From Vicinamibacteria bacterium (lineage in GTDB: Bacteria; Acidobacteriota; Vicinamibacteria; Fen-336): a DNA stretch of 64,000 bases. A program made the position numbers and the translations under genes. Location: NCBI GenBank assembly GCA_035570235.1, contig DATMML010000015.1, forward strand, positions 1-64,000. Reading direction: 5' to 3'. The notes below the pieces were generated by a model. It was not told the DNA's origin. It made no database searches and saw nothing but the letters and a program-made list of their open reading frames with translations. Position 1 is the first letter of the stretch. The number at the start of each line of letters is the position of its first letter. Shown here one piece after another: positions 18,470 to 22,482 of this stretch.

Positions 18470-19201
18470 GTGGACCCCTCCGCGGTCGAGATCGTGCTCG
18501 TGCGGCCCGCCCGTCCCGGCAACGTGGGGGCCGCCGGCCGGGCCATGAAGAACATGGGAATCCGCGTGCTCAAGCTGGTGGGTCCCCCCGTGGCGCTCCA
18601 GGGGCCGGAAGCGCGCCGGCTCGCGCACGGCGCCGAGGACGTGCTCGATGGCGCCACCGTTTGGGAAGACCTGGGCGCAGCCGTGGCCCCGAGCACGCTG
18701 GTCGTGGGTACGTCAGGCCGTCCCGCCCCCGGGGCTTGGACGCCCCGTCAGATGGCGCACGAAGCCACCGCCCTGGCCGGGGGGGGACGGGTCAGCCTGG
18801 TTTTCGGCCCCGAGGCCACCGGCCTGACGCGGGAAGAGCTGGCTCTCTGCCACCGGCGCGTACATATCCCGACCGACAGCGCCCAGCCTTCCTTGAATCT
18901 CGCCCAGGCCGTCCTCCTCGTGGCTTATGAGATCCGGCTCTCCTCGATCGGCCCCCGCGAGGAGGAGGCGGAGGCCCGCGCCTCCACGGGCGAGCAGGAG
19001 CAGGCCCTGGACGAACTGCGCCACGCCCTGCTCGGCATAGGCTATCTGAACCCGGACAACCCGGAGGCCATCCTGGCCGAGATCCGGGTCCTGCTCTCGC
19101 GGGCGGGACCGACGCCGCGCGAAGTGTCCCTCCTGCGTGGCCTCGCCCGCCAGATCGGCTGGGCGGCGCGGATTGCGCGCGGGCGGGCGGCGAGCAGATA
19201 A
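18470..19201 (+). CDS. trmJ: tRNA (cytidine/uridine-2'-O-)-methyltransferase, TrmJ-like
   Basis: 243-residue SPOUT (knotted) methyltransferase that modifies the 2'-O of tRNA position 32 with SAM. Motif 1 NVGAAGRAMKNMG (Asn and Arg typical of SpoU), motif 2 LVFGPEATGLTREEL, motif 3 PTDSAQPSLNLAQAVLLVAYE, in the right order for TrmH/TrmJ. A C-terminal helical extension (about 165-243) matches TrmJ rather than TrmH. The GTG start sits immediately after the -10 element, suggesting a leaderless mRNA. First gene of a plus-strand run to pilT and hflX. Confidence 0.85.
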   Translation: MDPSAVEIVLVRPARPGNVGAAGRAMKNMGIRVLKLVGPPVALQGPEARRLAHGAEDVLDGATVWEDLGAAVAPSTLVVGTSGRPAPGAWTPRQMAHEATALAGGGRVSLVFGPEATGLTREELALCHRRVHIPTDSAQPSLNLAQAVLLVAYEIRLSSIGPREEEAEARASTGEQEQALDELRHALLGIGYLNPDNPEAILAEIRVLLSRAGPTPREVSLLRGLARQIGWAARIARGRAASR

Positions 19202-19231: not shown

Positions 19232-19702
19232 GTGAGCGAGCTGCGGGTCCCTACCGTGGCCCTGAATGCCGAGGTGCTGTGCGGAGACGGTCGCACCTTC
19301 CTCGGCCGCATCTTCGTGCCTGCCTCCGCCCTAGGCCATGCCGGGGCCATGCGTCCTGAGGAGTGGATGAACGAGCCCTCCGACTTCTTCCCCTTCCTGC
19401 CCGACGACGCGGAAGGGCCGGTGATCCTCAACCGGCGGGAGATCCTCATCATCAGCGTCCCCGCATCTGCGGACGCGGACGAGGTCTTGGAAGAGGCCGC
19501 GAACCCCCGCCGGCGGGTGGCCATCGAGTGCGGAGGCCGCCGGTTGGAGGGCGTCATTGTGATCGACATGCCCCAGAACCAGAGCCGGGTCCTGGACTAC
19601 CTGAACCGGGCGGGGGGGTTCCTGACCCTGCGCGCGGGCGAGCGGCACCACCTCATCCGGAAGGGGCGCATCACGCGCGTCCTGGAACTCCAGGGGGAAT
19701 GA
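19232..19702 (+). CDS. Conserved-looking hypothetical protein upstream of pilT
   Basis: 156 residues, no signal peptide, no membrane segment, predicted beta-rich. The sequence alternates short strands (VALNAEVLCGDG, FLGRIFVP, VILNRREILIISVP, RVAIECGGRRLEGVIVIDMP) and ends with a region FLTLRAGERHHLIRKGRITRVLEL. I do not recognise the family with confidence. GTG start 19232 follows GGGAGG (19219-19225). The pilT gene starts 4 bases after its stop, so the two are translationally linked and the protein may assist pilus retraction or its regulation. Confidence 0.7.
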   Translation: MSELRVPTVALNAEVLCGDGRTFLGRIFVPASALGHAGAMRPEEWMNEPSDFFPFLPDDAEGPVILNRREILIISVPASADADEVLEEAANPRRRVAIECGGRRLEGVIVIDMPQNQSRVLDYLNRAGGFLTLRAGERHHLIRKGRITRVLELQGE

Positions 19703-19706
19703 GGCC

Positions 19707-21179
19707 GTGTCCCTGGATCGGCTCATCCAGCAAGCGGCCAAGGCGGGGGGGCAGGAGCTGCGGCTCCTCCCCGGCCGCAGGATCGTGATCCTGACCCCGG
19801 CCGGGGAGCGCGAAGTGCAAGGCCCGCTCCAGACCCCGGCCAGCATCGAGGAGCTGCTCGCCCCCGTCCTCAGCGAGGACTCGAGGAAGAGCCTGGCCGC
19901 CGGCACTCGCGCGGAATGGCGGATGGAGGTGGCGGGGGTGGGAGAGGTACGAGCCCTAGCCGAGCTCCGGCCGGGCTCGACGCGGGCCGTGTTCAGCCTG
20001 GACAACGTTCGGGCCCCCGTCCCCGCCTCCGCCGCGCCCCGGGCCAAGCCCGCCGGCACCGCGGCCGAGATGGAGGAGCTGCTCACCCTGCTCTTCGACA
20101 TGAAGGCCTCCGACCTGCACCTCTCCGTGGGCTCGCCCCCCCTGGTCCGCCACGATGGCGAGATTAAGCCGTTCCCCGGCCGGGCTGTACTGACCCCCGC
20201 CGACACCGAACGCCTGCTCTGGCCCATCGCTCCCGAGCGAAACCGGGACGAGTTCAAGCGGCGCAACGACACCGACTTTGCTTATGAAATCCCGGGGGTG
20301 GCCCGTTACCGCTGCAATTTCTTCCGGGATCGGAAGGGGATGGGGGGGGTCTTCCGCGTCATCCCCACCCAGATCATCACCGCCGAGGAGATGGGCCTCT
20401 CTAGGGAGATTCTCCAACTCTGTCACCTGCCCAAGGGCCTGGTCTTGGTCACCGGCCCCACGGGGTCGGGCAAGTCGACGACGCTGTGTGCGCTCATCGA
20501 CTACATCAACCGCTCCCGCACCGACCACATCATCACCATCGAGGACCCCCTCGAGTTCGTCCACGAGAACAAGAAGTGCCTGATCAACCAGCGGCAGGTG
20601 GGAGACCACACCGCCTCCTTCAAGGACGCCCTGCGCGCGGCCTTGCGCGAGGATCCCGACATCGTGCTGGTGGGGGAGATGCGGGACCTGGAGACGGTGG
20701 CCATCGCCATCGAGACCGCGGAGACCGGTCACCTGGTCTTCGGCACCCTCCACACCTCGTCCGCCCCCTCCACCGTGGACCGGATCATCGACCAGTTCCC
20801 CGCCGATCGCCAGGGACAGATCCGGGTCATGCTCGCGGAGAGCCTGAAGGGTGTCATCAGCCAGATGCTGTGCAAGAAGATCGGGGGCGGCCGCGTGCCC
20901 GTGCTGGAGGTGCTGATCGGGATCCCTTCCGTCGCCAACCTCATCCGGGAGGCCAAGATCTTCCAGATCCCGTCCATCATGCAGACGGGAAAGAAGTACG
21001 GCATGTGCCTCATGAACGAGAGCTTTACCGACCTCGTGAAGAGGAAGATCGTGGATCCCCAGGAAGCCTACGCCAAGACGCTCGACAAGACGGGGTTGCT
21101 CTCCTCCTTCCGGAAGAACGGCATCGACACCTCCTGGGCGCCGGCCGAGCCAGCCACGGGCGCGGCTCCCCACGCATGA
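19707..21179 (+). CDS. pilT: PilT-type pilus retraction ATPase with extra N-terminal domain
   Basis: 490 residues, about 130 longer than typical PilT. The C-terminal 370 residues carry the family features: N-terminal PAS-like domain beginning ASDLHLSVG, Walker A GPTGSGKST, Asp box (IEDPLEF), Walker B VLVGEMRDLET, His box (GHLVFGTLHTSSA) and the PilT-type SVANLIRE near the C-terminus. Type IV pili use PilT to depolymerise pilin. The first 110 residues align by eye with the PAS-like domain itself (see findings), so the protein looks internally duplicated. GTG start. No pilin or pilC genes in the window. Confidence 0.88.
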   Translation: MSLDRLIQQAAKAGGQELRLLPGRRIVILTPAGEREVQGPLQTPASIEELLAPVLSEDSRKSLAAGTRAEWRMEVAGVGEVRALAELRPGSTRAVFSLDNVRAPVPASAAPRAKPAGTAAEMEELLTLLFDMKASDLHLSVGSPPLVRHDGEIKPFPGRAVLTPADTERLLWPIAPERNRDEFKRRNDTDFAYEIPGVARYRCNFFRDRKGMGGVFRVIPTQIITAEEMGLSREILQLCHLPKGLVLVTGPTGSGKSTTLCALIDYINRSRTDHIITIEDPLEFVHENKKCLINQRQVGDHTASFKDALRAALREDPDIVLVGEMRDLETVAIAIETAETGHLVFGTLHTSSAPSTVDRIIDQFPADRQGQIRVMLAESLKGVISQMLCKKIGGGRVPVLEVLIGIPSVANLIREAKIFQIPSIMQTGKKYGMCLMNESFTDLVKRKIVDPQEAYAKTLDKTGLLSSFRKNGIDTSWAPAEPATGAAPHA

Positions 21180-21261: not shown

Positions 21262-22482
21262 GTGGGGCTCACCGCAGGGCGAGGGACCCGGGTGCGGACC
21301 GAGTCGTCGGTGGAGGAGCTCGGCCTCCTCGCCCGCTCCGCGGGAGCGCGCGTGGTGGGCAGCCTGATCCAGGAGCGGAAGCGGCAGGACCCCGCCACCC
21401 TCATCGGTCGGGGCAAGGTGCAGGACGTGGTCCGCCTTTCCGAGGAGCGGGACGCGAACCTCCTTCTCTTCAACGACGAACTCACTCCCGCCCAGCAGCG
21501 GAACCTCGAGAAAGCGGTGGGGCGCAAGACCCTCGACCGCACGCAGCTCATTCTCGACATCTTCGCGCGGCGGGCGCGCACCCGGGAGGGCCGGCTCCAG
21601 GTGGAGCTGGCCCAGCTCGACTACCTGCTGCCCCGGCTCACGGGACGTGGCGTTCTGCTCTCCCGCCTGGGGGGCGGGATCGGAACGCGGGGGCCCGGAG
21701 AGACCAAGCTGGAGACCGACCGACGCCGGATCCGACAGCGGATCCAGGCCGTTCGGCGGGAGATCGAGAAGGTGGGGCGTGAGCGCAACACCCGCCGCGA
21801 GGCCCGGCAACGGGGGGCGGTGCCGGTAGTGGCCCTCGTCGGCTACACAAACGCGGGGAAATCCACCCTCTTCAACGCCCTCACCCGGGCACGGGCCCCC
21901 GTCTCGGATCAGCTCTTCCTGACCCTCGATCCCCTGGTGCGGCGGGTGCGGCTGGGGGCGGGCCGGGGGGTGCTGCTCGTGGACACCGTGGGGTTCATCC
22001 AGAAGCTTCCCCATACCCTCGTGCCCGCCTTCCGGGCGACCCTGGAGGAGGTGGTGGCGGCCGACCTCCTCCTCCACGTGGTGGACGGCTCCGCAGACGA
22101 CGTGGAGGAGCGGGAGGGGGCGGTGGAGAAGGCGCTCCGGGAGATCGGAGCCGGCGAGCGTCCCTCCATCCTGGTCCTCAACAAGTGCGACCGCACGCTG
22201 CCCGCCCGATCCGCGGCCCTGAGGGGCGCCCGCCCGGGATCGCTCCTGGTCTCCGCGGAAACCGGCGAAGGCCTCCCCGAGCTCACCGCGGAGTTAGCCG
22301 CCCGCCTCGACCTGCTGCCCCGCAGCGTCCGCTTGCGTTTCCGGGCCGAGGACGCGCGCGGCATCGCCGGCGTCTACGCCTGCAGCCGCGTGCTCTCCCA
22401 CGAGGTGATCGGGGAGGAGGTCCGGATCGACGCCGAGATTCCGGAGCGCCTCCTCCCTCGGTTCCGGGAGCACCTGATTTGA
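21262..22482 (+). CDS. hflX: Ribosome-associated GTPase HflX
   Basis: 406 residues from the first usable start. HflX binds the 50S subunit and splits stalled ribosomes. N-terminal glycine-rich domain (SLIQERKRQDPATLIGRGK) followed by a linker with GTRGPGETKLETDRR, then the G domain: G1 GYTNAGKST, G3 DTVGFIQKLP, G4 NKCD. The frame stays open upstream, and residues before the GTG (AERALL) resemble the family's usual N-terminus. The best ribosome site (AGGAGG, 21195-21200) precedes an ATA codon at 21211. The true start is therefore uncertain. Confidence 0.88.
   Translation: MGLTAGRGTRVRTESSVEELGLLARSAGARVVGSLIQERKRQDPATLIGRGKVQDVVRLSEERDANLLLFNDELTPAQQRNLEKAVGRKTLDRTQLILDIFARRARTREGRLQVELAQLDYLLPRLTGRGVLLSRLGGGIGTRGPGETKLETDRRRIRQRIQAVRREIEKVGRERNTRREARQRGAVPVVALVGYTNAGKSTLFNALTRARAPVSDQLFLTLDPLVRRVRLGAGRGVLLVDTVGFIQKLPHTLVPAFRATLEEVVAADLLLHVVDGSADDVEEREGAVEKALREIGAGERPSILVLNKCDRTLPARSAALRGARPGSLLVSAETGEGLPELTAELAARLDLLPRSVRLRFRAEDARGIAGVYACSRVLSHEVIGEEVRIDAEIPERLLPRFREHLI

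Follow-up and report, generated by a model that had tools for sequence, protein, structure and literature searches.

The motors of the PilT/PilU family (TIGR01420), such as those of Pseudomonas aeruginosa (PDB 3jvu) and Geobacter metallireducens (PilT4, 6ojx), consist of an N-domain and a motor domain with Walker A, Walker B, Asp box and His box motifs. One N-domain followed by the motor is their usual plan, which is typical but not demanded by the family model. The usual PilT-type ring is built of packing units (PMC5424180, PMC6858323), and the closed interface of G. metallireducens PilT includes the N-domain residues D32 and R81 (PMC6858323). The extension ATPases of the PilB/GspE/MshE type carry two serial N-terminal domains, N1D (that is MshEN, PF05157) and N2D, in front of the CTD. 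The outer of the two is flexibly tethered, and in PilB it is invisible in crystals (PMC5424180).

In this study, a PilT protein with two N-domains was analyzed in a window of 64,000 nucleotides (the whole stretch of DNA under study) from a Vicinamibacteria bacterium (assembly G000, 5.7 Mb in 138 contigs). Like the PilT/PilU proteins, it contains an N-domain (N1), the motor and all four of its motifs; unlike them, it has a second N-domain (N0) in front, falls in a clade apart from the canonical PilT that its genome also encodes and, in an alignment with canonical paralogues, has SVANLIRE in the place of the usual AIRNLIRE. Two serial N-terminal domains are a feature shared with PilB, GspE and MshE, but here the outer one duplicates the N2D-type domain, is not an MshEN domain and precedes a motor of the PilT type.

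Domain architecture and genomic context

The PilT open reading frame occupies positions 19707-21179 of the plus strand, starts with GTG and encodes 490 amino acids. Four parts were distinguished within it: (i) N0, an extra N-terminal PilT N-domain with a PAS-like fold and a diverged duplicate of N1 (residues 1 to about 98, positions 19707-20006; delimited with hhalign, HMM searches and AF2 with Foldseek), (ii) a Pro/Ala-rich linker of about 20 amino acids (20007-20066; sequence and linker statistics), (iii) N1, the canonical PilT N-domain of the N2D or PAS-like type (residues ~121-218, 20067-20360; N0-only HMM and TIGR01420) and (iv) the RecA-like motor domain (20361-21116; TIGR01420, alignment of the paralogues and PDB match). 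On the same strand, a gene for a SpoU-type rRNA methyltransferase (18470-19201; PF00588, 1.7e-24) and a small gene (19232-19702), whose product is a predicted tandem of two beta barrels of about 60 amino acids, lie upstream. An HflX-type GTPase gene (21262-22482; PF13167, PF16360 and PF01926), the start codon of which is uncertain, follows downstream.

The NCBIfam model TIGR01420 matched residues 122-458 with 451.8 bits (cut-off 319.1), which assigns the protein to the PilT/PilU family, and the best match in the PDB was P. aeruginosa PilT (3jvu, 2e-113). Because of its two N-domains, the protein is nevertheless a variant and not a plain member of this family. Walker A (GPTGSGKST), the Asp box (TIEDP), Walker B (VGEMRD) and the His box (GHLVFGTLHT) are all present, so the motor appears catalytically intact. 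Within the first 120 residues, Pfam searches found no domain and PAS family models gave no match up to E=1; MshEN (PF05157) matched neither this region nor the protein as a whole. An N1D/MshEN domain of the PilB type, or another domain known to Pfam, was thus ruled out for N0.

N0 as a second copy of the PilT N-domain

Compared as a lone pair, N0 and N1 of the window protein appear only marginally alike and near noise: BLASTP aligned them with E=0.046 and in the wrong register, and their Smith-Waterman score was 59, with a maximum of 54 among 5000 shuffles. The family profiles were decisive, and place the likeness far beyond chance. Alignment with hhalign of an N0 profile (22 sequences) against an N1 profile gave a probability of 98.6 and a score of 85.7 over 99 colinear columns, while the reversed profile scored 11.5 and none of 100 column shuffles exceeded 16.5; chance similarity was excluded by these nulls. 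When the 118-amino-acid extension was searched in 60 related genomes, five orthologues were found, followed by seven weak matches (E from 3e-6 to 5e-4), every one of which was the canonical N-domain of a PilT-like protein. Within the window, the N0-only HMM matched N0 itself (19710-20006) and the N1 of the same protein (20067-20360, E=2.7e-10). In the PDB, it retrieved N-domains of PilT/PilU (3jvu with 6.3e-12, then 5fl3, 9n32 and 2gsz; range 6e-12 to 2e-3), and the first non-motor chain appeared at E=0.13.

The structure of N0 alone, predicted by AF2 from an N0-only alignment and without templates (pLDDT 91.6, pTM 0.83), shows the order H-EEE-HH-EEE; this is support and not wholly independent proof, since AF2 was trained on PilT structures. 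The 30 best Foldseek matches of the model in the PDB were all PilT/PilU (TM 0.82-0.88, rmsd 1.4-1.9 A), followed by DotB, GspE and PilB, and on the N-domain of 3jvu the model superposed with a TM of 0.87 and an rmsd of 1.5 A over 97 columns. Although the PilT N-domain is PAS-like in its fold, N0 differs from PAS domains proper in having no PAS family match, and its nearest structures are N-domains of secretion and pilus ATPases only. By profile homology and by structure, N0 belongs to the PilT N-domain fold, and it is almost certainly a duplicate of this domain.

The original prediction, made from the DNA letters, had described residues 1-110 as a diverged duplicate of the PAS-like domain at about 115-215 and the extension as free of motor residues, and on both points the profiles and the predicted structure agree with it. 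The open reading frame, the extension and the three matching blocks all lie where it had placed them; among the letters quoted for the blocks, the positions are right and one slip was found, as the sequence reads EIPGVARYRCNFF and not VPGVARYRCNFF. The structural superposition that it proposed was made in substance, with the N0 model laid on solved counterparts of N1. A disordered extension or one of unrelated fold, named there as the outcome that would speak against a duplication, was ruled out by AF2 and Foldseek.

Distribution of the N0-bearing paralogue in Acidobacteriota

The genomes sampled for N0 were those of Acidobacteriota, in which a contig scan with model A1 reached five close relatives. 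An HMM of six close N0s revealed further N0-bearing PilTs in several families of the phylum, and a broader N0 HMM detected dozens of open reading frames with two serial matches. As the loci of the first motor tree had been picked mostly for having N0, a survey without N0 columns was performed to counter this bias, with a model (A5) of only N1 and the motor of the paralogue clade, in 149 Acidobacteriota genomes with a completeness of at least 90%. Exactly one such paralogue was present in 35 genomes (27 of the 100 genera). N0 was found in 34 of these 35, a proportion that may be somewhat inflated, since we set the cut-off (E 1e-170) ourselves and most of the sequences behind the model came from N0-bearing members. 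In 33 of them it is located in the same open reading frame and in the remaining one (G135) at the end of a second contig; G035 is the sole genome of the 35 whose paralogue is without N0.

In these genomes, the canonical PilTs (the best TIGR01420 loci) are open reading frames of 375-425 amino acids, nearly all without N0, which rules out N0 as a feature of all Acidobacteriota PilTs. Those of the window genome are located on contigs C59, where the gene adjoins a pilB gene, and C104. In a tree with reference sequences, the motor clade of the paralogue was supported with 97/92, and the PilTs of P. aeruginosa, Aquifex and Geobacter fell outside it. Judged from these sequences, N0 is the mark of an additional PilT paralogue that accompanies the canonical PilT and is spread across the Acidobacteriota, and not a local oddity. 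The window genome also encodes a GspE-like protein (G000:C37:143566-144699) with SPPFNGANTSS in its Walker A region, which is therefore a probable non-ATPase homologue of GspE.

Origin, loss and replacement of N0

In a tree of 99 N-domains, inferred from only 108 columns and with long N0 branches, all 41 N0s were placed on one side of a single branch and the 58 N1s on the other (SH-aLRT 95). This grouping of every sampled N0 indicates a single old duplication, and not repeated ones. A recent, species-specific duplication was ruled out, as N0 and N1 form two groups over the whole phylum.

After the duplication, N0 was lost or replaced several times. In two genomes of the family of the window organism (G007 and G008; loci L111 and L112), the PilT carries a zinc ribbon (PF13717, 7e-10 and 7e-8) and a Pro/Ala linker instead of N0; both genes stand behind the same small gene at the orthologous locus and are nested in the clade of the window protein (98/89). 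No N-terminal extension is present in the PilT of G051, G052, G055 and G035. At locus L115 (G006:C169) the PilT gene itself is gone, and the SpoU methyltransferase gene and the small gene are directly followed by hflX. In family f81, N0 is found on a different PilT lineage (L035, L040).

Further PilT-type proteins of the phylum bear other modules at the attachment place of N0. At L019 (G014) and L087 (G246), a PilT-type ATPase carries long arrays of HEAT repeats (PF13646) as an N-terminal fusion, and the PilT-type ATPase at L104 (G310) has an N-terminal MshEN domain (PF05157, 1.7e-6), a module usual in PilB/GspE. At L121 (G004), a repeat-like open reading frame follows the small gene, and the locus ends before any motor. 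A second clade of N0-bearing PilT-like proteins was observed in Vicinamibacteria (L015, L016, L018, L021 and L099). Its members have Pro-rich linkers, longer than 200 amino acids in L016 and L021, and a decayed motor in which the Asp box (TIEDP) and the His box (GTLHT) are altered, e.g. to SLESE and ATMTA; given these changes, they may be pseudo-ATPases. Finally, N0-bearing PilTs with large in-frame internal deletions were noted at L012/L114 (G003:C138), where N1 is joined straight to the late part of the motor, and at L034 and L047 (G367:C139), where a shortened copy lies beside a cut one. These copies could be products of assembly collapse or real remnants.

Residues kept and lost in N0

The hydrophobic core of the domain (L18, L50, F71 and F81, in the numbering of P. 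aeruginosa PilT) and P26 are kept in N0, while S16, D17, H19, R29, G32, D70, R80, R82, N84, F86 and R97 are lost. The lost residues are invariant or nearly so in N1 and comprise nearly all of its invariant polar residues. The interface residues D32 and R81 of the G. metallireducens protein correspond to the D of the RxDG motif and the first R of RFR (the numbering was checked on 6ojx, with the tag taken as 20 residues), and at their counterparts the N0 of the window protein has P31 and E80. The whole set of ring-packing and interface motifs (SDLH, RxDG and RFRxN) is thus lost from N0. The same loss would be expected of a domain that drifts, caps the ring or has another binding partner.

The linker between N0 and N1, compared in 68 proteins, measures from 9 to 259 amino acids (median 54) and is 45% Pro plus Ala, a composition that points to flexibility in all 68 cases. 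Within the family of the window organism, sequence identity is 61-66% in N0, 72-80% in N1 and 87-92% in the motor, so N0 evolves faster than N1 and the rest of the protein. Across the phylum, N0s share only about 20-25% identity, with the frame and the fold kept; L20, G23 and G33 are the only near-invariant residues. In the family of the window organism, 25 columns show no variation; they include the charged R24, R35 and E36 of the beta2-beta3 hairpin.

N0 could be a structural part of the ring, packed on N1 or on the motor domain of the neighbouring subunit and changing the symmetry, stability or speed of the hexamer. Its fold, which is that of the ring-building domain, and its retention in almost every paralogue-bearing genome of the survey would suit such a role. 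Against it stand the loss of the residues by which N1 packs and closes the interface, the existence of close relatives with no N0 or with a zinc ribbon instead, and the linker, whose variable length makes a fixed position in the ring unlikely. Taken together, lost interface residues and a flexible linker make it improbable that N0 takes the place of N1, and the suggestion in the original prediction that the extension may alter hexamer packing is weakened by them. A structural role is therefore considered unlikely, though N0 may have a capping effect on the ring.

Still less likely is that N0 acts as a PAS-like sensor of a ligand or nucleotide that switches the motor. MshEN, the module found in one Acidobacteriota PilT, can bind c-di-GMP in extension ATPases, which lends this idea some plausibility; however, canonical PilT N-domains are not known to be sensors, and Pfam found no sensor domain in N0. 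The description of the PilT N-domain as PAS-like (PMC13142100) also fits a sensory role. With so few residues nearly invariant across the phylum, however, no conserved ligand pocket shows in N0.

The small upstream gene

The stop codon of the small gene lies 4 bases before the start of the PilT gene. Comparison of the two halves of its product with hhalign (prob 96.6, E 5e-10) identified it as a tandem, and AF2 predicted two barrels with a pLDDT of 89.3. Foldseek gave only weak Sm/Hfq-like matches (E 0.16), none of them significant, and the second half resembles DUF6812 below the cut-off.

This gene was found 2-45 bases before an N0-bearing PilT in at least eleven families (f1, f36, f79, f54, f5, f81, f16, f83, f49, f30 and f10); none of about 30 canonical PilT loci had it as a neighbour. 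Together with the PilT paralogue, it forms a real two-gene unit conserved across the Acidobacteriota (L110-L128 and the window). This linkage would favour a reading in which N0 contacts the tandem-barrel protein and both act as a pair. However, the gene also precedes six members of the clade without N0 (L111, L112, L120, L122, L126 and L128; this count is biased, as the search started from the small gene), and many N0-bearing PilTs lack it (families f42, f33, f17 and f69). Because each occurs without the other, the small protein is not tied to N0 in particular. Co-occurrence therefore does not favour the proposed interaction of N0 with the small upstream protein, also part of the original prediction, and a pair of this kind seems improbable. 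If the small protein binds the paralogue at all, it more likely does so through N1 or the motor.

N0 might also be a functionless remnant in decay, in agreement with its fast divergence and its repeated loss or replacement. This is highly improbable, however, for a domain that retains its reading frame and its fold across the phylum at such low identity and whose invariant columns in the family of the window organism include charged residues.

Proposed function of N0 and its meaning

By a slight margin, we favour the reading that N0 is a tethered docking or regulatory module and not an altered part of the ring, with N1 and the motor forming the usual ring. As N0 has lost the ring-building residues, it is probably a docking or control handle outside the motor ring. 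An old duplication placed a copy of the PilT N-domain ahead of the original, and the outer copy kept the fold but lost the residues that pack N1 on the motor domain of the neighbouring subunit. This copy sits on a flexible Pro/Ala linker, evolves faster than the other domains and was replaced at a fixed locus in close relatives; the motor is intact in its catalytic motifs. According to the model, N1 and the motor domain would form the usual hexamer, and six N0s would hang from its N-domain face, in the position that N1D has in PilB/GspE. From there they would direct the motor to one pilus machine or adaptor in particular, or control its access to one, and would take no share in the ATPase ring. 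A plug-in adaptor slot of this kind would fit the zinc-ribbon exchange in the close relatives and the HEAT or MshEN modules in front of other PilTs. Its retention in almost all members of the clade, on the other hand, suggests that N0 may be more integral than a swappable adaptor would be.

The PilT motor and the fold of its N-domain are already known. For a clade of PilT paralogues defined by a duplicated N-domain, with an exchange of modules at the N-terminus, a search of a limited literature library found no description. More speculatively, the paralogue might represent a third kind of type IV pilus motor, spread through the phylum, in which a copied ring domain has become an exchangeable targeting handle. 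Swaps of the outermost module (duplicated N-domain, zinc ribbon, HEAT repeats or MshEN) would then address the motor to a pilus machine or a site in the cell, with the tandem-barrel protein as a dedicated partner; this broader scenario is tentative and is put forward with little confidence.

These findings bear on the question of how a cell distinguishes between its several PilT-like motors and brings them to the pilus machine. PilT lacks the N1D that extension motors carry before their ring, and here a natural PilT paralogue has evolved an outer domain of its own from its ring domain. Its relatives, with a zinc ribbon or with nothing in the place of N0, constitute a ready natural comparison.
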